A stretch of DNA of 64,000 nt from Leeia aquatica. Its GTDB lineage: Bacteria; Pseudomonadota; Gammaproteobacteria; Burkholderiales; Leeiaceae. The stretch spans positions 1,674,001 through 1,738,000 of the forward strand of contig NZ_JABAIM010000001.1 in assembly GCF_012641365.1 (NCBI RefSeq). Direction: 5' to 3'. The notes beneath the pieces are model-generated. The model was not told the DNA's origin. It saw nothing but the letters and a program-made list of their open reading frames with translations, and searched no databases. Shown piece after piece: positions 1 to 10,226 of this stretch. Position numbers and translations under genes: made by a program. The stretch's first letter is position 1. Every line of letters starts with the position of its first letter.

Positions 1-645
1 GGGCGACTGAACCACCCGAACATCGTCACCATTTATGACGCCGGTGAAGAGCACGACCTGGCCTATATCGCCATGGAGTTCCTCAAGGGCAAGGACCTGG
101 CCGACCAGATCAAGCCGGATCACCTGCTGCCGATGCCCACCGTGATGCAGATCATCGCCAAGGTCGCGGACGCGCTGAACTATGCCCACAGCCAGAGTGT
201 GGTACACCGCGACATCAAGCCCGCCAACATCATGTACGAGCCGGACCAGCACACGGTCAAGGTGACCGACTTTGGCATCGCCCGCATCACCGACTCCAGC
301 CGTACCAAAACCGGCATGGTGCTGGGCACGCCCAGCTACATGTCACCGGAACAGCTCTCCGGCAAGAAGATCGACGGTCGGTCGGACCTGTTCTCGCTGG
401 GGGTCACCCTGTACCAGATGCTGTGCGGGCACTTGCCCTTCCATGGCGACTCCATGGCCGAGCTGATGTTCCGCATTGCCAATGATCCGCCGCGCGACAT
501 TACCCAGTTCAACAATGCCTTGCCCCTGTGCGTGCTTACCATCCTGAACAAGGCCTTGCAGAAGGATGTCGAGCGTCGCTACCAGAGCGGCGCCGAACTC
601 GCGGCCGCCCTGCAGCAATGCCTGGCGGAGTGCGGCCATGCGTAA
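1..645 (+). CDS. Ser/Thr protein kinase (Hanks type), 5' end outside window
   Basis: The reading frame is open from base 1, so the glycine-rich loop and the catalytic lysine lie upstream. Visible kinase motifs are HRDIKPAN (catalytic loop), DFG in VTDFGIAR, the TPSYMSPEQ activation segment and DGRSDLFSLGV (subdomain IX). The product would phosphorylate Ser/Thr on cytoplasmic proteins. The kinase domain runs almost to the C-terminus, with no membrane segment or PASTA repeats after it, so this end at least is soluble. The stop overlaps the start of the PP2C phosphatase gene by 8 bases, and an FHA protein follows, which makes a writer-eraser-reader set. The family call is secure; the substrate is unknown. 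Confidence 0.95.
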   Translation, partial: GRLNHPNIVTIYDAGEEHDLAYIAMEFLKGKDLADQIKPDHLLPMPTVMQIIAKVADALNYAHSQSVVHRDIKPANIMYEPDQHTVKVTDFGIARITDSSRTKTGMVLGTPSYMSPEQLSGKKIDGRSDLFSLGVTLYQMLCGHLPFHGDSMAELMFRIANDPPRDITQFNNALPLCVLTILNKALQKDVERRYQSGAELAAALQQCLAECGHA

Positions 646-1468
646 TACCGATCTGCGTGCTGCACTCGAGATGGTTGCCCTGTCAGACCCGGGCATGGTG
701 CGTGAACACAATGAGGATGCTGTCGCCATCGACAACAGCATGGGCATGGCCATCCTCGCCGACGGCATGGGCGGCTACAACGCGGGAGAAGTGGCCAGCG
801 GCATGGCCATTGCCTGCATCAGCACCGAGCTGAAACTGCGCATGCCCGGCGTCGAGCTACACAAGCGCGATCCGGAAAGTGGCCGCCCGCAGGCACACCG
901 CCTGCTGCTGGATGCCATTGCCAATGCCAACCGGGAAATTTTCCAGACCGCACGGAATCAGCCGCAATGTGCCGGCATGGGCACCACCCTGGTGGTCACC
1001 CTGTTTTACGACAACCGTTTGAGCGTGGCGCATATTGGTGACTCCCGGCTCTACCGCCTGCGTGACGAGCGGCTGGAGGTTCTGACCCGCGACCACTCGC
1101 TGCTGCAGGAGCAGATTGACAGTGGCTTGCTGACCGAAGAGCAGGCGCGTCACGCGCACTACCGCAATCTGGTGACCCGTGCGCTGGGCATTGATGATGC
1201 CGTTGAGGCGGACATCAACGATTATGAGGTGGAGGAAGGCGATCTGTATCTGCTGTGCTCGGACGGGCTCAATGACATGCTGACCGACGACGAGATTTCC
1301 GAAGCCATGCAGATGCTGGGCAGCAACCTGCCGCTGGCCTCGCAACAGCTGGTACAAATGGCCAATGATGCCGGCGGCAAGGATAACGTCTCGGTCATTC
1401 TGGCCCAGGTCAAAGGCTCCTTCAAGACACGCCGCAGCCGCTTCAGCTGGCTGCTGCCCTGGCTGTGA
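638..1468 (+). CDS. PP2C-family Ser/Thr protein phosphatase
   Basis: This 276-residue protein is predicted to remove phosphate from Ser/Thr and to counter the kinase encoded just upstream. PP2C metal-binding motifs are present in order: REHNEDA near the N-terminus, LADGMGGYNAGE, GMGTTLV, AHIGDSRLYR, LLCSDGLNDML and GGKDNVSV near the C-terminus. There is no signal peptide or membrane segment. I chose the ATG at 638 because GGAG lies 7 bases upstream and the homology starts at once (LRAALEMVALSDPGMVREHNED). A longer frame from 566 would run through the kinase gene and is unlikely. The start overlaps the kinase stop, which suggests translational coupling. Confidence 0.94.
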   Translation: MRNTDLRAALEMVALSDPGMVREHNEDAVAIDNSMGMAILADGMGGYNAGEVASGMAIACISTELKLRMPGVELHKRDPESGRPQAHRLLLDAIANANREIFQTARNQPQCAGMGTTLVVTLFYDNRLSVAHIGDSRLYRLRDERLEVLTRDHSLLQEQIDSGLLTEEQARHAHYRNLVTRALGIDDAVEADINDYEVEEGDLYLLCSDGLNDMLTDDEISEAMQMLGSNLPLASQQLVQMANDAGGKDNVSVILAQVKGSFKTRRSRFSWLLPWL

Positions 1469-1519
1469 ACGCGCTGAGGGGCGCACTGGACATACGATAA
1501 AAGATAGAAGGACTTCACC

Positions 1520-2191
1520 ATGCCCAAACTGATCATGAGCCTGGACGGTGCCGAGCTACGGGAATTCACGCTGAGCGGCAGCCGGATGACCATAGGCCGC
1601 AAGCCGCATAACGACATCCAGATCGAGAATCTGGCGGTCAGTGGTGAGCACGCGGCCTTGCACAGCATCCAGGGTGAGTACTATGTGGAAGACCTGAAAA
1701 GTACCAACGGTACCTTGGTCAACGGCAGCCCGATCGAGAAGCACTTTCTCAAGCACAACGATGAGATCGAGATCGGCAAATTCCGTCTGCGCTATGTCGC
1801 CGAAGGCGCGGCTGCGCCTGTCGACAGCGGCAGCTTTGATCGCACCATGGTGTTGCGGCCGGGCATCAAGCCTGCCGATCTGCCCCCGCCGCCGCCACCA
1901 CAAGCGGCCCCGGCACCCGCACCGGCTTTGCCGAGCGGCCGGATCAGCGTCCTCAATGGCAGCAACGCCGGACGCGAGCTGGAGCTGAACAAGAACCTGG
2001 TCACGTTGGGCAAGCCCGGTGTACAGGTGGCCGTGATCAGCCGACGCCCGCAGGGGTTCTTCCTGACCCACGTCGAGGGCGCAAGCTTCCCGCAGGTGAA
2101 CGGTGCTGCCATCGGCAGCCAGCCGCATCCGCTGCAGCCGGGTGACGTGATCGAACTGGCTGGCGTACAAATGCGCTTCCAGCAGCCCTGA
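1520..2191 (+). CDS. FHA-domain protein with a second FHA-like half
   Basis: The 223-residue protein has an N-terminal FHA domain (about residues 15-95) with the pThr-binding signature: IGRKPHNDI, SGEHA and STNGTLVNG. A Pro/Ala-rich linker follows (about 115-140, with a run of seven prolines). The C-terminal half (about 142-223) looks like a degenerate second FHA fold: VNGAAI and LQPGDVIELAGV are kept, but the Ser/His phosphate-binding residues are not evident. It probably reads phosphothreonine made by the kinase two genes upstream. The FDRTMVL stretch before the linker is a plausible phospho-acceptor (inference). An AGAAGGA ribosome site precedes the ATG. Confidence 0.92.
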   Translation: MPKLIMSLDGAELREFTLSGSRMTIGRKPHNDIQIENLAVSGEHAALHSIQGEYYVEDLKSTNGTLVNGSPIEKHFLKHNDEIEIGKFRLRYVAEGAAAPVDSGSFDRTMVLRPGIKPADLPPPPPPQAAPAPAPALPSGRISVLNGSNAGRELELNKNLVTLGKPGVQVAVISRRPQGFFLTHVEGASFPQVNGAAIGSQPHPLQPGDVIELAGVQMRFQQP

Positions 2192-2199
2192 CGCCCACC

Positions 2200-4431
2200 A
2201 TGCTGGAAGCGCTGAAACGCTACCGCTGGCCCTTGCTGCTCAGTATTCTGGTGCAGGTGGCGCTGCTGTTGCATGTGGTCGGCATCTGGCACAGCGAGCC
2301 CTTGACCCGGCTGGAGTATCAGCTCTACGACATGCGTCTCAACCTGACACGGCAGGACAAGGTCGATCCGCGCATCGTCATTCTCGACATTGACGAGAAG
2401 AGCCTGGCCGAGGTCGGGCGCTGGCCGTGGTCTCGCCATCGGCTGGCCGAGCTGATGGATGTGCTGTTCCAGCACTATCACATCAAACTGGCGGGCTTTG
2501 ACGTGGTGTTTGCCGAGCCCGACCACAGCTCGGGTTTACCTGCGCTGCAACAGCTGGCGAAAGGTACGCTGGCCAACAATCCGGACTATCAGGCCGCCCT
2601 GCAGCAGCTGACCCCGACACTGGACTATGATGCCCGCTTTGCCCGCAGCCTGTCCGGTCGCCCTACCGTGCTGGGCTATTACCTGAGCGGCGACAGCGAA
2701 CAGCAAAGTGGCCAGCTGCCGCCGCCGGTGATGGATGCCGGGCAACTGCCCCCCTCCAACCTGCAAGGCGCCCAGCAGGCCATCGGCTTTGGTGCCAATC
2801 TGCCCATCCTGCAGAAGGCGGCACGCAGTGCCGGGCATTTCAACCCGATACCGGACCTGGATGGCGTCACCCGCCGGGTGGCCATGTTGTCTGGCTTCAA
2901 TGGGCACTATTACGAGCCGCTGTCTCTGGCCATGTATCGCAGCCTCAACGGTCAACCCCCGGTGCTGCTGGAAAAGCCCGCCGGGGTGGGTAGTGACAAC
3001 TATGCGGCCATTGATTACCTGCGGGTGGGTGATGCCCGCATCCCGATTGATACCGAACTGGCAGCCCGTGTGCCCTATCGGGGACCCGCCGGCAGCTTTG
3101 CTTACCTGTCGATCAGCGATGTGCTGGCCAAGCGCGTACCGCTATCCGCGCTGCAAGGGCGCATCGTGCTGGTCGGCACCACCGCGCCGGGCCTGATGGA
3201 CTTGCGCTCCACCCCGTTCAGCGCCGTCTACCCCGGTGTGGAAGTCCACGCCAACTTACTGGCAGGCATGCTCGACAATCGCTTCCCAGCTCATCCCACT
3301 TATCTGCTGGGTGCAGAAGTCTTGTTGTTGTTGATACTCGGCATTGTGCTGCTGTTGATCCTGATCCGGGCCAAGCCGCTGAAGGCAGCGCTGACCTGCC
3401 TGTTGGCGGTATTGCTGGTGCTGGGTGGCAATCTGTGGTTGTGGCGACAGGAATATGTGGACATGCCGCTGGCCGCCAGTCTGGCCCTGATCGCGGCCTT
3501 CTTCATCATCCACATGACCTACGGTTACTTCTTTGAATCCCGCAGCAAGCGCCAGCTGGCCGGTGTTTTCGGTCAGTATGTGCCGCCCGAGCTGGTGGAA
3601 AAGATGAGTGCCGATCCGGAAAAGTACACCATGGAAGGCGACAGCCGCGAGCTGACCGTGCTGTTCTCCGATGTGCAGGGCTTTACCAGCATTGCGGAAC
3701 AGCTGGATCCGCAGCAGCTCACCAGCCTGATCAACGAATTCCTGACCGAGCTGTCTACCGTAATCCGCCAGCAGCACCTGGGCACCATCGACAAGTATAT
3801 GGGTGACTGTATCATGGCTTTCTGGGGGGCCCCGGTGGCCGACCCGGACCATGCCCGCAGCGCCATCTTGTCAGCACTGGACATGCAGAAGGTGATGCGA
3901 CAGCTGGCACCGCGCTTTGCTGAGCGCGGCCTGCCCGAATTGGTCATCGGCATCGGCATCAATTCCGGCCGCATGACGGTGGGCGACATGGGATCACAGT
4001 ACCGCAAGGCGTATACCGTGATGGGGGATGCGGTCAACACGGCTGCCCGGCTGGAAAGCCTGACCCGCCTGTATGGAGTGGACATCATTGTCGGTGAACT
4101 GACCCGCAATGCAACCCGCAAGGAATTCCTCTACCGCGAGCTGGATCATGTGCGGGTCAAAGGCAAGGACGAGCCGGTTACCATTTACCAGCCGGTATGC
4201 CTGGCCAGCGAAGCCAGTGCGGAGCAAACCCGTGCGGTGCAGCTCTTCCAGCAGGCGCTGCGGCACTACCGTGAACAGAACTGGGACATGGCCGAGCTGC
4301 AATTGCTGAGCCTGCAGCAAGCAGAACCCAACAGTACCCTGTATGCCCTGTTTCTGCAGCGTATTGCACATTACCGCAAACAGCCCCCCGCACCCGACTG
4401 GGACGGGGTCAGCCAGATGGACAGCAAATGA
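2200..4431 (+). CDS. CHASE2-domain class III adenylate cyclase, membrane-bound
   Basis: This 743-residue sensor cyclase has an N-terminal membrane segment (about residues 8-30), an extracytoplasmic CHASE2 domain (about 35-360, with YDMRLN and DIDEKSLAEVGRWPWSRHR), three membrane helices (about 368-450) and a C-terminal class III cyclase domain (about 480-680). Metal-binding aspartates are D491 (FSDVQGFT) and D536 (MGDCIMAFW). The purine-selecting residues read K532 (IDKYMGD) and T606 (YTVMGD). Lys/Thr is the class IIIb adenylate cyclase pattern, and several members of that class are bicarbonate-stimulated, so the expected product is cAMP. The start is 8 bases after the FHA stop, and the stop overlaps the next gene by 4. 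Confidence 0.93.
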   Translation: MLEALKRYRWPLLLSILVQVALLLHVVGIWHSEPLTRLEYQLYDMRLNLTRQDKVDPRIVILDIDEKSLAEVGRWPWSRHRLAELMDVLFQHYHIKLAGFDVVFAEPDHSSGLPALQQLAKGTLANNPDYQAALQQLTPTLDYDARFARSLSGRPTVLGYYLSGDSEQQSGQLPPPVMDAGQLPPSNLQGAQQAIGFGANLPILQKAARSAGHFNPIPDLDGVTRRVAMLSGFNGHYYEPLSLAMYRSLNGQPPVLLEKPAGVGSDNYAAIDYLRVGDARIPIDTELAARVPYRGPAGSFAYLSISDVLAKRVPLSALQGRIVLVGTTAPGLMDLRSTPFSAVYPGVEVHANLLAGMLDNRFPAHPTYLLGAEVLLLLILGIVLLLILIRAKPLKAALTCLLAVLLVLGGNLWLWRQEYVDMPLAASLALIAAFFIIHMTYGYFFESRSKRQLAGVFGQYVPPELVEKMSADPEKYTMEGDSRELTVLFSDVQGFTSIAEQLDPQQLTSLINEFLTELSTVIRQQHLGTIDKYMGDCIMAFWGAPVADPDHARSAILSALDMQKVMRQLAPRFAERGLPELVIGIGINSGRMTVGDMGSQYRKAYTVMGDAVNTAARLESLTRLYGVDIIVGELTRNATRKEFLYRELDHVRVKGKDEPVTIYQPVCLASEASAEQTRAVQLFQQALRHYREQNWDMAELQLLSLQQAEPNSTLYALFLQRIAHYRKQPPAPDWDGVSQMDSK

Positions 4432-5198
4432 CGGAAATCCGTGTCCTCGGTTGCAGCGGCGGCATTGGTGGCCCGCTACGCACCACTTCCTTTCTGGTAG
4501 ACCAGCATGTGCTGATCGACGCCGGGACCGGCGTGGCCGACCTCAGCCTGGCAGAGCTGGCCCTGGTAGACCGGGTCTTCCTCACCCACAGCCACCTTGA
4601 CCATATCGCCATGCTGCCACTGATGCTGGATTCGGTCGGCGCCATGCGCAACCAGCCGCTGGAAGTGCTGGCGACATCCGAAACCATTGCCATCCTGCAG
4701 CAGCACATCTTTAACTGGCAGGTGTGGCCGGATTTCAGCCAGATACCCGACCCGCAACACCCATTCCTTCGCTTCACCCCGATCCAGCTGGGGCAGACCA
4801 TCGCCTTAGGACGGCATGCCCGGTTGCAAGTCTTGCCCGCCGAGCATACGGTGCCGGCTGTCGCCTACGCCCTCCGCTGTAGCAAAGGCAGCTGGGTCTT
4901 CAGCGGTGACACGGTGGGTGGGGAGGCGTTCTGGCGCGCGGTCAATGCCTTGCCCGACCTCAGATACCTGATCATGGAAACCGCATTTTGTGTGCGCGAG
5001 GCGGAGTTGGCCCGCTTGTCGAAACACCTGAGTCCGGATACGCTGGCTGAACAACTGGCCTGCCTGCAACTTCCGGTCGAGCTCTACATCACCCATTTGA
5101 AGCCAGGCGAGCTGGAACTGACCATGCAGGAAATTCATGCGCTGGCAGCTCGCTGGCAGCCGCGCATGCTGCAGGCCGGCCATGTGTTCAGCCTGTAA
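4428..5198 (+). CDS. Metallo-beta-lactamase-fold hydrolase, possible cyclic-nucleotide phosphodiesterase
   Basis: The 256-residue protein has the MBL metal motif THSHLDH near residue 53, then AEHTVPA, FSGDT and YITHLKPGE as later metal ligands. There is no signal peptide. The overall form (short N-terminal beta strands, IDAGTG, HSHLDH) resembles RNase Z-like hydrolases and the class II cyclic-nucleotide phosphodiesterases. The gene sits between an adenylate cyclase and a cyclic-nucleotide-binding protein and overlaps the cyclase stop by 4 bases, so cAMP hydrolysis is the most attractive role, but this is inferred from context. The fold is secure; the substrate is not. Confidence 0.88.
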   Translation: MTEIRVLGCSGGIGGPLRTTSFLVDQHVLIDAGTGVADLSLAELALVDRVFLTHSHLDHIAMLPLMLDSVGAMRNQPLEVLATSETIAILQQHIFNWQVWPDFSQIPDPQHPFLRFTPIQLGQTIALGRHARLQVLPAEHTVPAVAYALRCSKGSWVFSGDTVGGEAFWRAVNALPDLRYLIMETAFCVREAELARLSKHLSPDTLAEQLACLQLPVELYITHLKPGELELTMQEIHALAARWQPRMLQAGHVFSL

Positions 5199-5210
5199 CG
5201 GACCCTTGCC

Positions 5211-6248
5211 ATGAGTACGCCTACTACTGCCTTGCTGCAGCGCCTGCACCCGGTGGCCTCGCTGTCGCCGGAACGTCTGGAAGAGCTGCGCGGTTTCTGC
5301 TTTGTCGAACGCATCCCGCCCGGGCATGACCCCTTCCGCATGGATGATACCCGCCAGAAAACGGTCTGGCTGCTGGGTGGACGACTGTCGATCAGCTTCG
5401 GGGATGGTCATACCCAAGTGTTCAGCCCGGCTGAGGATGGTGCGATCCCGACCCTGCCGCTCAAGGCTCCCATTCTGCGCGCCACCGCCATTGACGAGGT
5501 TGCGCTGCTGCGTATCGACAGTGACTTGCTCGACATCCTGCTGACCTGGGACCAGCTCACCCAGGACGAAGCATTACAATCGGACCCGCACCACATGGTC
5601 AGCGCCGACAGCCTGCGTTTTGGCGCGCTGGCGGCCCTGAAGCCCGCGCAGTACCGCAGCCTGCTGGCACACCTGCAGCGGATTGAGTGTGCAGCGGGTA
5701 CCGTGCTGATTCGGGAAGGCGATGCCGGGGATTATTACTACTTGCTGGAGCAGGGTGCCGCCACCATCACCCGCCAGGTGGGTGGCACCCAGCAGAAGCT
5801 GGCCGAAGTGGGGCCTGGTGCGGCCTTTGGCGAGGAGGCGCTGGTGTCGGATAACCCGCGCAACGCCACGGTCACCCTGACGCGTCACAGCATTCTGCAC
5901 CGCTTGTCCAAGCAGGATTTCAGCACCTTGCTCAAACAGCCACTGCTGAATGAGGTGGATGCCACTACCGCGCAACAGGCCGCGCAACAAGGCGCCACCT
6001 GGCTGGACGTGCGCTTCCCCTCCGAGTATCAGCACAACCGGCTGGACGGCGCCTTCAATATACCGCTCAACGAGATTCGCAACGCGGTCGATGTGCTGTC
6101 CCGTGAACGCCGCTACCTGTGCTATTGCGATAGCGGCCGCCGTGCTGCGGCAGCAGCCTTCTTGCTGGCACAGAATGGCTATCAGGTCAGCGCGCTGCGC
6201 GGTGGTCTGCAAGCCTTGTCCGCCCTACCGGAACCCACCCAATCATGA
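5211..6248 (+). CDS. Cyclic-nucleotide-binding protein fused to rhodanese
   Basis: The 345-residue protein has three parts. Residues about 10-130 look like a degenerate CNB fold. Residues about 138-250 are a good CNB domain whose phosphate-binding cassette (FGEEALVSDNPRNATV) keeps Glu208 and Arg217. Residues about 255-340 are a rhodanese domain (WLDVRFPSEY, then YCDSGRR with the likely catalytic Cys306). It should sense cAMP or cGMP and control the rhodanese domain or a partner. There is no DNA-binding helix-turn-helix, so it is not a CRP-type regulator. It lies 12 bases after the MBL gene, and its stop overlaps the ATPase start by 4 bases. Confidence 0.92.
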   Translation: MSTPTTALLQRLHPVASLSPERLEELRGFCFVERIPPGHDPFRMDDTRQKTVWLLGGRLSISFGDGHTQVFSPAEDGAIPTLPLKAPILRATAIDEVALLRIDSDLLDILLTWDQLTQDEALQSDPHHMVSADSLRFGALAALKPAQYRSLLAHLQRIECAAGTVLIREGDAGDYYYLLEQGAATITRQVGGTQQKLAEVGPGAAFGEEALVSDNPRNATVTLTRHSILHRLSKQDFSTLLKQPLLNEVDATTAQQAAQQGATWLDVRFPSEYQHNRLDGAFNIPLNEIRNAVDVLSRERRYLCYCDSGRRAAAAAFLLAQNGYQVSALRGGLQALSALPEPTQS

Positions 6249-8611
6249 ATCCAAACAGCACCGAAGGTTTGACCCAGATGGTCGACGTGCGCGACCGCCT
6301 GACCTTCCATCGCAATCTGCAAAATGTCATCAACCGCATCCACGCCACGCAGAATATCGACGAGCTGATGCTGGAGCTGTCCGGTGAGATTTGCAGTCAG
6401 TTTGAGGCCGACCGGCTGACCATTTATGTGATCAGCGAAGACAAATCCTCCATCGTGTCCAAGGTCAAGACCGGGCTGAACTCCTTCCGCGACATCCGCT
6501 TGCCGATTACCGAGCAAAGCGTGGCGGGCTACTGTGCCCTGCACAAGCAAAGGCTCAACATTGCCGATGTCTACAACCAGGAAGAGCTGGCTCGCTACAG
6601 TGCCGAGCTGCGTTTCCTGGCCGAAGTGGACAAGCGCACCGGCTATCGAACCAAGCAAGTACTGGTCTGCCCGATTCTGGATGAGCGTGACAACAACCTG
6701 ATTGGTGTGCTGCAACTGATCAATCAGCGCGATGACCAGCCCTTCTCGCTTCTGGTACTGGAAGGGGCCATCGAGCTGTGCAAGACACTGGCCATCGCCT
6801 TGCGGCAGCGCCAGTCTGGCGCACCGTTCATTCCACGCTCACGCTACGACCACTTGGTGGTCGATGGCATTTTGTCTGCGCCGGAGCTGGAGCTGGCAGG
6901 GCGTTCGGCCCGCCGCAAGAATACTGATCTGGAAACCGTGTTGCTGAGCGAGTTTCAGGTCAAGGTGGAGGCCTTGGGGCAAGCACTGTCCCGCTTCTAT
7001 CAAGTGCCTTATGTCGGCTTCAAGGCAGACCGGCTCAAGCCCATTGAGCTGTTGCGCAACCTGAAGCAGGAGTTCATCGAAGAAAAGGGATGGCTGCCGC
7101 TGGAGGACACGAAGGAAGGCCTGCTGATCCTGACCATGGACCCGGAGCAGGTTAAAGCGGGCCGGCTGGCGCAAGAGCTGTTCAGCCAGTACAAGCTGCA
7201 GTATGCCGTCACCACCCACCTCGAATTCAACCAGACGGTACAGGCTTTTTACGGCAGTGGCAGCGGCTCGATCAGTGACATCCTGTCGGATATGGAAGAC
7301 GAGCCGGTCCACGACAGCGGCCCGACCGCCGAGGAGCTGAGCGCCGCGCAGGACAACGAGCTGGTCAAGCTGGTGAACAAGATCATCATGGACGCCTACC
7401 AGCAAGGTGCCAGTGACATTCACATCGAGCCCTACCCCGGCAAGAACAAGACCGAAGTCCGCTTCCGCCGTGACGGCACCTTGGTACCGTATATTGAAGT
7501 CCCCTCCAGCTACCGTGATCCGCTGGTCACCCGCATCAAGATCATGTGCGACCTCGACATCTCCGAGAAGCGCAAGCCACAGGATGGCAAGATCAAGTTC
7601 AAGAAATATGGCCCATTGGATATCGAATTGCGGGTCGCCACCGTGCCGACAGCGGGTGGGCTGGAAGATGTGGTGATGCGGATTCTGGCCGCCGGGGAGC
7701 CGATTCCGCTCGACAAGCTGGGCCTCTCGCCCTACAACCGCAGCCAGCTGGAAAGCGTGGTCAGCAAGCCTTATGGCCTGTTCTTTGTCTGCGGCCCCAC
7801 CGGCTCGGGCAAGACCACCACCCTGCACTCGGTACTGAAGTTTCTCAATACCTCGGAAACCAAAATCTGGACCGCAGAAGATCCGGTGGAAATCACGCAG
7901 AAGGGCCTGCGACAGGTGCAGATGAACCCCAAGGCCGGGCTGAACTTTGCCTCGGCGATGAAATCCTTCCTCCGCGCCGACCCGGACGTGATCATGGTGG
8001 GCGAAATGCGCGACCGCGACACCACCGCCATCGGCATTGAAGCGTCACTCACTGGTCATCTGGTGCTGTCCACCCTGCATACCAACAGCGCACCGGAATC
8101 CATCATCCGTCTGCTCGACATGGGCATGGACCCCTTCAATTTTGCCGATGCCCTGCTCGGTATTCTGGCGCAACGGCTGGCCAAGCGTCTATGCTCTAAG
8201 TGCAAGGAAGCCTACACCCCCGGCAAGGAAGAGATTTCCCGCCTGCTCAATGAGTACTGCGAGGAATTGAAAGCCACCGTGCAGTGGCAGCGTGATCCGA
8301 AGGCCGCCTTTGAGGGTATTTACCGGGATTGGGTCAAGCGCTTTGCCAATGCCAAGGGTGAGTTCACCCTGTATCGCGCCAAGGGCTGTGACCACTGCCT
8401 GGACAGCGGCTACAAGGGGCGGCTGGGCTTGCACGAGCTGCTGGTAGGCAGCGATGCCAGCAAGAAAGCCATTCAGGAACACGCCCGGGTGGCCGAATTG
8501 CTGGCCATTGCCCTGAATGAAGGCATGCGCACGCTGAAACAGGACGGTATCGAGAAAGTGCTACAAGGAGATACTGACATGCTGCAAGTACGGGCAGTCT
8601 GCATCAAATGA
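6245..8611 (+). CDS. GAF-domain GspE/PilB-like secretion ATPase
   Basis: This 788-residue protein begins with a GAF domain (about residues 15-185), followed by a type II/IV secretion ATPase N-domain of the MshEN type (about 200-330) and a GspE-type ATPase (about 370-788). The ATPase has Walker A GPTGSGKTT at 517-525, the Asp box after MVGEMRDRDT, the His box STLHTNSA and a zinc-binding CSKC/CDHC pair near 650 and 716. In the MshEN-like part the usual Arg-Leu-Gly signature for c-di-GMP is not clear. No pilin, GspD, GspF or other secretion gene is nearby, so this is an orphan ATPase with a fused small-molecule sensor, placed inside a signalling operon. Confidence 0.93.
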   Translation: MNPNSTEGLTQMVDVRDRLTFHRNLQNVINRIHATQNIDELMLELSGEICSQFEADRLTIYVISEDKSSIVSKVKTGLNSFRDIRLPITEQSVAGYCALHKQRLNIADVYNQEELARYSAELRFLAEVDKRTGYRTKQVLVCPILDERDNNLIGVLQLINQRDDQPFSLLVLEGAIELCKTLAIALRQRQSGAPFIPRSRYDHLVVDGILSAPELELAGRSARRKNTDLETVLLSEFQVKVEALGQALSRFYQVPYVGFKADRLKPIELLRNLKQEFIEEKGWLPLEDTKEGLLILTMDPEQVKAGRLAQELFSQYKLQYAVTTHLEFNQTVQAFYGSGSGSISDILSDMEDEPVHDSGPTAEELSAAQDNELVKLVNKIIMDAYQQGASDIHIEPYPGKNKTEVRFRRDGTLVPYIEVPSSYRDPLVTRIKIMCDLDISEKRKPQDGKIKFKKYGPLDIELRVATVPTAGGLEDVVMRILAAGEPIPLDKLGLSPYNRSQLESVVSKPYGLFFVCGPTGSGKTTTLHSVLKFLNTSETKIWTAEDPVEITQKGLRQVQMNPKAGLNFASAMKSFLRADPDVIMVGEMRDRDTTAIGIEASLTGHLVLSTLHTNSAPESIIRLLDMGMDPFNFADALLGILAQRLAKRLCSKCKEAYTPGKEEISRLLNEYCEELKATVQWQRDPKAAFEGIYRDWVKRFANAKGEFTLYRAKGCDHCLDSGYKGRLGLHELLVGSDASKKAIQEHARVAELLAIALNEGMRTLKQDGIEKVLQGDTDMLQVRAVCIK

Positions 8612-8636
8612 ATCCGCATTCGTCTGGGGCGCAACG

Positions 8637-10226
8637 GTGACGTCCGTCCTCGACATCCTGGCCCGGCTGGACAAGCTGAACGCCATTGGCCGTGCCTTGT
8701 CCGCCGAAACGGATTTACCACGCCTGCTGGAGGCCATCCTGCTGGCCGCCAAAGATTTTGCCAACGCAGACGGCGGTACCCTGTACCGCATGGTGGATGG
8801 AGCGCTGCAGTTCGAAGCGCTGCGCAACGATAGCCTCGGCTTTGCCATGGGGGGAACTACCGGCACCGCCATCCCCTTCCCACCGATTCCCTTGCAGCTG
8901 GCCGATGGTCGCCCCAATCAGCATATGGTGGTCGCCCACGCAGCCCTGAGCGGGCAGACCGTCAACATTGCCGATGCCTACAGTGCCGAAGGCTTTGATT
9001 TCTCCGGTACCCGTGCCTTTGATGCCCGCACCGGTTACCGCTCGCAGTCCTTCCTCACCGTACCGATGAAAAGCCACGATGGCAGCATCATCGGTGTGCT
9101 GCAATTGATCAATGCGCAAGATGGAGCCGGCCAGATTCGCAGTTTTACGGCCGAGGACCAGCAGCTGGTGGAATCCCTGGCGTCACAAGCGGCTATTGCA
9201 CTGAATAACCGGTTACTGATCCAGCAGCTGGAGCAACTGTTTGAAGCCTTGATCAACCTGATCAACGCCGCCATTGACGAAAAGTCACCCTACACTGGGG
9301 GACATTGTGAGCGGGTCCCCCTGTTGACCATGATGTTGGCCGACGCGGCCCACCAGGTCAAAAGTGGCCCGCTGGCCGACTTCCACATGAGCGAGCAGGA
9401 TCGCTACGAGCTGAAGATTGCCGGGCTGTTGCACGACTGTGGCAAAATCACCACCCCAGTGCATGTGGTGGACAAAGCCACCAAGCTGGAGACCATATTC
9501 GACCGCATCACCCTGGTCGATACCCGCTTTGAGATTCTATTCCGTGATGCGGAGATCGCCCTTCTGAAAGGGGAGATGGACGAAGCCGCTTACACTGCGC
9601 GCATTCACCAGCTGGAAAACGACCGGGAGCTACTGCGTGCTACCAATATCGGCGGCGAATACATGGATGAGGCCCATCTGCATGCGGTCGAGACCATTGC
9701 AGCCATGCCGTGGCGTGACCATGATGGCAAGGAACAGACCTTCCTCAGCACGGACGAACTCACGAACCTGTCCGTACGCCGCGGCACGTTAAATGAGACT
9801 GAGCGCAACATCATCAACCACCACATCGTGATGACCATCCGACTGCTGGAAGCCCTGCCGTGGCCGGCGCATCTGGCGCGGGTACCAGAATATGCGGGCG
9901 GTCACCATGAGCGGATGGATGGGCGCGGCTACCCGCGCGGACTGACCCGTGAGCAGATGAGTGTTCAGGCTCGCATCATGGGCATTGCCGATATTTTTGA
10001 GGCGCTCACCGCGCGGGATCGTCCCTATAAACCCGGCAAGCCCTTGTCCGAGTCGCTGACCATTCTGGGCCGCATGGCACGGGACCAACATATCGACAAT
10101 GATTTGTTCGATGTCTTTATGCGTGAGCGGGTGTACCTGCGCTACGCGGAGCAGTTTCTGGAGCCCAGCCAGCTGGACCATGTCGACCCGGCCAGCATAC
10201 CCGGCTGGTCCGGCAGCCGCTGCTAG
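8637..10226 (+). CDS. GAF/HD-GYP domain protein, predicted c-di-GMP phosphodiesterase
   Basis: The 529-residue protein has an N-terminal GAF domain (about residues 15-195) and a C-terminal HD-GYP domain (about 205-515). The metal-binding HD pair is in LLHDCGK (266-267), and the signature HHERMDGRGYP is at 423-433, followed by ADIFEALTARDRPYK. HD-GYP enzymes hydrolyse c-di-GMP, usually to GMP. The HD domain has a long insert (about 275-390) before the second His region. The start is a GTG 25 bases after the ATPase stop, with only a weak GGGG ribosome site. It is the last gene of the signalling run; pth on the other strand faces it. Confidence 0.93.
   Translation: MTSVLDILARLDKLNAIGRALSAETDLPRLLEAILLAAKDFANADGGTLYRMVDGALQFEALRNDSLGFAMGGTTGTAIPFPPIPLQLADGRPNQHMVVAHAALSGQTVNIADAYSAEGFDFSGTRAFDARTGYRSQSFLTVPMKSHDGSIIGVLQLINAQDGAGQIRSFTAEDQQLVESLASQAAIALNNRLLIQQLEQLFEALINLINAAIDEKSPYTGGHCERVPLLTMMLADAAHQVKSGPLADFHMSEQDRYELKIAGLLHDCGKITTPVHVVDKATKLETIFDRITLVDTRFEILFRDAEIALLKGEMDEAAYTARIHQLENDRELLRATNIGGEYMDEAHLHAVETIAAMPWRDHDGKEQTFLSTDELTNLSVRRGTLNETERNIINHHIVMTIRLLEALPWPAHLARVPEYAGGHHERMDGRGYPRGLTREQMSVQARIMGIADIFEALTARDRPYKPGKPLSESLTILGRMARDQHIDNDLFDVFMRERVYLRYAEQFLEPSQLDHVDPASIPGWSGSRC

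Follow-up and report, generated by a model that had tools for sequence, protein, structure and literature searches.

Here, we report that in Leeia aquatica a metallo-beta-lactamase (MBL)-fold hydrolase is encoded directly behind a CHASE2-class III adenylate cyclase, and that this hydrolase is probably a cyclic AMP (cAMP) phosphodiesterase from a class-II-related subfamily. Both genes lie in a block read on one strand (1..10226, +) of the 64,000-nt stretch analyzed, hereafter the window (Table 1), together with a gene for a protein combining a cyclic nucleotide-binding (CNB) domain with a rhodanese domain. The original prediction had derived the substrate of the hydrolase from gene position alone. 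This claim now gains support that is independent of position, from the PDEase_II family match, the fold and profile likeness to yeast PDE1, a FNxxxWPD block, the lack of an RNase Z insert, the phylogenetic tree, and co-occurrence with cyclases. Gene order, protein families, catalytic and ligand residues, and their conservation, all read from sequence, are the basis from which we infer substrate, cAMP binding, direction of control, and output.

The hydrolase contains the full THSHLDH metal motif described in the original prediction, and the open reading frames of the hydrolase and the CNB-rhodanese protein lie where that prediction had placed them. H54, H56, D58, H59, and H140 were identical in 72/72 nonidentical homologs, and the metal ligands D161 and H223 were kept in all 71 homolog rows reaching those positions. 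Pfam assigned the protein to Lactamase_B_2 (54.1 bits, E = 2e-14), Lactamase_B (34.3 bits), and PDEase_II (PF02112; 43.8 bits, E = 2.4e-11, above the gathering cutoff of 23.7). Yeast PDE1 was the best PDB match of the single sequence (E = 3.1e-6), followed by rice RNase ZS1 (4.9e-4), and it also ranked first when a profile of 58 family members was searched against the PDB (7.6e-13, positions 43-226). In profile-profile comparison, the family scored 197.5 against typical class II phosphodiesterases and 164.1 against RNase Z. An AlphaFold2 model of the hydrolase (predicted local distance difference test [pLDDT] score 97.2) had yeast PDE1 as its top fold match (Foldseek, 1.2e-16), which was likewise first by Z score (27.1 over 250 of 256 residues, 2.3 A, 26% identity).

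Downstream of the metal motif, the hydrolase carries the block ETxxxLxxHxFNxxxWPDF. Among the groups to which this comparison extended, FNxxxWP[DN] was present in 66/66 subfamily rows, 3/4 typical class II rows (the remaining one being fragmentary), and 4/4 rows of a family termed f239, whereas it was found in 0/2 RNase Z rows and 0/1 PhnP. The 38 rows labeled "bet" in this count include two from gammaproteobacterial metagenome-assembled genomes (MAGs; L010 and L011). The FNxxxWPD block is also seen in yeast PDE1 in the PDB profile alignment. A second diagnostic feature is the distance from the third metal His to the bridging Asp, taken from numbered invariant alignment columns: 21 residues in the hydrolase (H140, D161) and 22 in the typical class II alignment (H223, D245), whereas E. 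coli RNase BN has a distance of 71 (H141, D212). The tRNA-binding arm of RNase Z lies in this segment; thus, the hydrolase is devoid of the part of RNase Z that holds the arm.

A tree of 79 rows, built from the subfamily, typical class II, f239, RNase Z, and PhnP, placed the subfamily, typical class II, and f239 on one side and RNase Z and PhnP on the other. RNase Z rows formed a branch of their own. The original prediction had named grouping with RNase Z as an outcome that would speak against it; the RNase Z rows branch apart, albeit across a separating branch that is not fully supported. Members of f239 (L157-L162, one family) bear FNxxxWPD and an HTHLDH motif, and a 98/95 clade adds only this family to typical class II. 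The window hydrolase grouped with a MAG copy (L003) and Chitinimonas and not with the copies of its two congeners (L046 and L047), and therefore replacement or transfer of the gene or the block is suggested.

The adjoining cyclase keeps the residues of an ATP cyclase. D491, K532, D536, T606, N613, and R617 were identical in 34/34 aligned cyclases (nonidentical open frames of >600 amino acids and >350 bits, window included). In class III cyclases, two Asp residues bind metal, an Asn and an Arg act on the transition state, and a Lys with a Thr/Asp forms the pair selecting ATP. We take D491/D536, N613/R617, and K532/T606, respectively, to fill these roles in the window cyclase. The window genome encodes one further class III cyclase domain.

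Hydrolase and cyclase also tend to occur in the same genomes. In 300 genomes of the order Burkholderiales, hydrolase matches were detected in 183, of which 173 were at E <= 1e-20. A class III cyclase was present in 163/173 hydrolase-positive genomes versus 47/127 others. The 10 matches weaker than 1e-20 were dropped from this count (7/10 of these genomes have a class III cyclase and 3/10 do not); with them kept, the figures were 170/183 versus 40/117. At the level of single loci, we took a census of 118 distinct hydrolase copies, a nonrandom sample of the closest homologs, one copy from each of many genera, copies from genomes lacking the cyclase, and 29 short-flank gammaproteobacterial loci. 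The cyclase gene was directly upstream in 52/117 copies with enough upstream sequence, a number that includes the 29 gammaproteobacterial orphans and one typical class II reference. Eight of the 52 adjacent pairs overlap (four of them by four bases), 32 lie within 20 nt, 10 are 21 to 60 nt apart, and 2 are farther apart. In the window, the bases ATGA at 4428-4431 belong to both open reading frames. The four-base overlap stated in the original prediction is thus correct, and it suggests the translational coupling that had been claimed as well.

The third member of the proposed make-break-sense arrangement is the CNB-rhodanese protein (Pfam cNMP_binding, E = 1e-19; Rhodanese, 52.6 bits versus a cutoff of 22.2, E = 6.7e-14). 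With E values of this order in both the hydrolase and this protein, the domain assignments are not chance matches. Its phosphate-binding cassette (FGE...R) is intact as predicted, with Glu208 and Arg217 correctly numbered; E208, R217, Asn218, and the rhodanese C306 were invariant in 13/13 aligned CNB-rhodanese proteins, window included. Where its gene exists, this protein likely acts as a sensor, with predicted binding of cAMP. A structure model (pLDDT 80, predicted template modeling [pTM] score 0.54) matched CNB folds and rhodaneses at Z scores of about 15 to 16. Tandem-CNB matches of long span included 3shr (residues 1-246, 14.7 A) and 6rsx (residues 5-289, 15.3 A), both with large gaps, and some tandem-CNB matches are kinase regulators. 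Because model confidence is low and the long-span matches are gapped with large root mean square deviation, we rate a second, degenerate CNB domain in the N-terminal part as only probable. Among the 88 loci whose downstream sequence was long enough, 13 had the CNB-rhodanese gene directly behind the hydrolase gene, and in each of these 13 the cyclase gene immediately precedes the hydrolase gene. The make-break-sense block is thus real where present; however, with the sensor in so few loci, feeding a CNB-rhodanese protein is not what the hydrolase does in general. Elsewhere in the window genome there are five more CNB matches, of which one is under the cutoff.

Several observations weigh against a cAMP phosphodiesterase in this block. 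The PDEase_II match is local, with hydrolase residues 49-105 covering profile positions 85-143 of 340, and the NCBIfam model RNase_Z (TIGR02651) scored higher than the cyclic-nucleotide phosphodiesterase model NF041851 (49.4 versus 29.7 bits). B. subtilis RNase Z nearly equaled PDE1 in the family-profile search (8.5e-13), and both YhfI (Z 26.6) and RNase BN (Z 26.4) were within 1 Z of PDE1. In the tree, the branch parting the subfamily from RNase Z had a support of 97/72, below the "starred" level and with long-branch warnings, and typical class II rows formed a 100/98 clade without the window hydrolase. The co-occurrence odds ratio of 28 is uncorrected for relatedness, and ten hydrolase-positive genomes are without a class III cyclase; eight of these carry divergent orphan copies (37 to 45% identity) with no cassette neighbors, one (G272) has a broken copy, and in the last (G067) the PP2C-FHA-MBL locus is intact. 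No cassette neighbor was found within about 1.4 kb in the 29 gammaproteobacterial copies fetched. In the candidate sensor, the residue after the cassette Arg, position 218, is Asn and not the Ala of PKA or the Thr of PKG.

Some of these points could be read as signs of an MBL nuclease, RNase Z-like or of another RNA-processing type, that stands beside the cyclase by chance. RNase_Z is the highest NCBIfam match of the hydrolase, RNase BN and RNase Z lie within 2 Z units of PDE1, and no protein of the window genome reaches the curated RNase Z cutoff, the best match to the model being the hydrolase itself at 40.2 bits. Yet the RNase_Z score is one sixth of the curated cutoff (292.95 bits), the segment of the tRNA-binding arm is missing, the FNxxxWPD block is absent from RNase Z rows, which branch apart, and the hydrolase gene follows cyclases. 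We therefore consider a nuclease very unlikely. The hydrolase was also below the cutoffs of NF041851 (400 bits) and of the glyoxalase II model TIGR03413 (19.8 versus 200.8 bits); with NCBIfam scores so far below their cutoffs, no curated equivalog covers it.

A cyclic phosphodiesterase acting on something other than cAMP is a closer alternative. 2',3'-cyclic nucleoside monophosphates, cyclic ribose phosphates as for PhnP, or cyclic pyrimidine nucleotides as for Apyc1 might be the substrate, considering that PhnP (Z 24.6) and Apyc1 (Z 23.9) have the fold of the hydrolase and that hydrolase copies occur in genomes without a class III cyclase. E. coli PhnP, however, sat at the end of a very long branch of the tree, far from the hydrolase, and lacks the class II block, and the adjoining cyclase keeps the ATP-selecting Lys/Thr pair throughout the alignment. 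We regard such substrates as unlikely and favor cAMP.

Thomson et al. (PMC9293780) describe typical class II phosphodiesterases as a small group known chiefly from unicellular eukaryotes, and they place an atypical group of bacterial enzymes (Rv1339, YhfI, and C. glutamicum CpdA) near RNase Z. With the typical group (PF02112; yeast PDE1 and Aliivibrio CpdP), the hydrolase has in common the MBL fold, HxHLDH, FNxxxWP[DN], an H[LM]xP motif, and the short stretch between the third His and the Asp, and PDE1 is its nearest solved structure. It differs in length (about 256 amino acids versus 331 to 365 in the open frames of the typical rows fetched), in being encoded beside a cyclase, in its position outside the typical clade, and in not matching a PROSITE-like class II pattern. 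This pattern, following HxHLDH, was found in 0/66 subfamily rows and in only 1/4 typical rows, and it is thus a poor test. Since the subfamily falls outside the typical clade, we call it class-II-related rather than typical class II. The atypical group resembles the hydrolase in its signature [T/S]HXHXDH (PMC9293780), present in the hydrolase as THSHLDH, in the Lactamase_B_2 domain, and in length, and YhfI ranked second by Z; however, the hydrolase scored far below the NF041851 cutoff. RNase Z and RNase BN are alike in fold and general metal site, but the hydrolase has no long insert between the third His and the Asp and remains under their curated cutoff. In our judgment, the subfamily is a third branch beside typical and atypical class II. 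No paper on the subfamily, the cassette, or the MBL-HD-GYP fusion described below was found in the openly licensed literature.

The hydrolase subfamily probably sits inside a larger kinase, phosphatase, and cyclic di-GMP (c-di-GMP) cassette. Genes of the window block overlap or are separated by at most about 50 bases, with 12 bases between the hydrolase and CNB-rhodanese genes, and are arranged as in one operon. Upstream sequence of at least 5.5 kb was available for 65 copies; 33 of them had a cyclase gene in place, 36 an FHA gene, 35 a PP2C gene, and 21 none of the three. A PilB-like gene was present in 24 and an HD-GYP gene in 26 of 56 copies with at least 7 kb downstream, fused copies included. 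The block gene order recurs across many genera, and the lasting partners of the hydrolase are the cyclase, PP2C, FHA, the PilB-like ATPase, and the HD-GYP protein. Thirteen loci combine PP2C/FHA and the hydrolase with no cyclase between them; thus, having that cyclase as a neighbor is not a requirement for the hydrolase.

In the two congeners found (G013 and G061), the hydrolase reading frame stays open through GAF and HD-GYP domains, and the resulting proteins are 795 and 793 amino acids long. Pfam PDEase_II, Lactamase_B_2, GAF, and HD_5 are over their cutoffs in both, and both keep the metal motif, FNxxxWPDF, HDCGK, and HHERMDGKGYP. Such a fusion speaks for joint action of the hydrolase and c-di-GMP breakdown, and it fits a cyclic-nucleotide substrate. 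A precedent for cAMP sensing tied to c-di-GMP breakdown is the CNB-EAL protein Bd1971 of Bdellovibrio, in which cAMP can control a c-di-GMP phosphodiesterase and the cassette is intact (FGEMALIDNQNRSA; PMC6717892). Bd1971 has CNB fused to EAL, whereas in the window CNB is fused to rhodanese and the HD-GYP protein is encoded apart; in the two congeners, HD-GYP is fused to a cAMP-phosphodiesterase-like domain.

In our model, the hydrolase would be a dinuclear-metal MBL-fold 3',5'-cyclic-nucleotide phosphodiesterase, most likely acting on cAMP from the CHASE2 adenylate cyclase, whose gene immediately precedes its own. With maker and breaker cotranslated, the cAMP signal might stay local and turn over fast; its most likely reader in this genome is the CNB-rhodanese protein, which would bind cAMP through its C-terminal CNB domain with the canonical cassette and so alter exposure or activity of its rhodanese domain. 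Together with the kinase, PP2C, and FHA proteins encoded upstream and the products of the next two genes downstream, PilB-like ATPase and HD-GYP protein, they may form one module joining protein phosphorylation, cAMP, and probably c-di-GMP, with the rhodanese and the pilus-type ATPase as presumed output.

A cyclase together with a CNB effector might also suggest a Pycsar-type anti-phage system. PADLOC PycC models matched the cyclase domain (best 103.9 bits), which we take as plain homology of the catalytic domain, and PycTIR matched the CNB part (31.2 bits). The latter match, however, is limited to residues 148-255 and is followed by rhodanese, with no TIR domain by Pfam; the neighbors are kinase, phosphatase, FHA, pilus-type ATPase, and HD-GYP genes in an order that recurs across genera; and neither the hydrolase nor the CNB-rhodanese protein had a match on 72,556 plasmid records. 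We judge anti-phage function to be extremely unlikely. We regard the RNase Z, PhnP/Apyc1-like, and Pycsar readings as rejected or weakened.

If the subfamily is active as a cAMP phosphodiesterase, a cAMP breaker would be identified for a large share of the order, in which no genome of the 300 passed the curated cutoff for the class III phosphodiesterase CpdA (34/300 matched at E <= 1e-30, and the window genome gave no CpdA-like match at this level). In the fused copies, breakdown of cAMP and of c-di-GMP would then be combined in a single protein, a case of messenger cross-talk. It is tempting to go further, although we regard this as doubtful, and to speculate that a previously undescribed class-II-related subfamily is the standard breaker of the order for CHASE2 cyclases, that the congener fusion destroys both cAMP and c-di-GMP, and that in the window a CNB-gated rhodanese performs cAMP-controlled sulfur transfer beside a pilus-type motor.

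Table 1. Features of the gene block in the window and fused frames in two congeners
Feature	Position	Strand	Basis or remark
Ser/Thr protein kinase, 3' part	1..645	+	Full open reading frame at L045:8033-10645; motifs HRDIKPAN and DFG in sequence
PP2C-type protein phosphatase	638..1468	+	Pfam PP2C_2 48.3 bits, PP2C 36.9 bits
FHA-domain protein	1520..2191	+	Pfam FHA 87.3 bits
CHASE2-class III adenylate cyclase (maker)	2200..4431	+	Pfam CHASE2 190.6 bits, Guanylate_cyc 89.3 bits
MBL-fold hydrolase (candidate breaker), 256 amino acids	4428..5198	+	Class-II-related cyclic-nucleotide phosphodiesterase candidate
THSHLDH metal motif, hydrolase residues 53-59	4584..4604	+	Translation, conservation
FNWQVWPDF block, hydrolase residues 95-103	4710..4736	+	Also present in class II phosphodiesterases
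CNB-rhodanese protein (candidate sensor), 345 amino acids	5211..6248	+	Pfam cNMP_binding and Rhodanese
CNB phosphate-binding cassette, residues 208-217, including E208 and R217	5832..5861	+	Alignment
Rhodanese active-site cysteine C306 (YCDSGRR)	6126..6128	+	Invariant in 13/13
GAF-MshEN-T2SSE (PilB-like) ATPase	6245..8611	+	Pfam T2SSE 389.5 bits, MshEN 36.4 bits, GAF 36.2 bits; Walker A GPTGSGKT
GAF-HD-GYP protein, probable c-di-GMP phosphodiesterase	8637..10226	+	HD_5 138.3 bits, GAF 60.1 bits; HDCGK, HHERMDGRGYP
Fused hydrolase-GAF-HD-GYP frames	L046:10848-13232, L047:10215-12593		

Further observations concern the neighbors and outlying copies. The N-terminal part of the kinase resembles the CHASE2 part of the cyclase (cyclase query versus L045:8222-9292, 27%). 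In many loci, the gene immediately following the hydrolase gene encodes the PilB-like ATPase, which has an N-terminal GAF domain and an MshEN domain; in other proteins, MshEN domains are c-di-GMP binders. The hydrolase gene of G272, a genome without a class III cyclase match, is disrupted and split over two frames (L141:9291-10050). The gene downstream of two gammaproteobacterial orphans (L117 and L118) encodes an SRP54-type GTPase in both loci; the divergent upstream gene of L117 encodes a cytochrome c assembly protein, and the upstream frame of L118 matches no family. At L137:7230-9776, the gene immediately preceding a divergent copy of the hydrolase encodes a CNB-patatin phospholipase, a second kind of cyclic-nucleotide-sensor neighbor.

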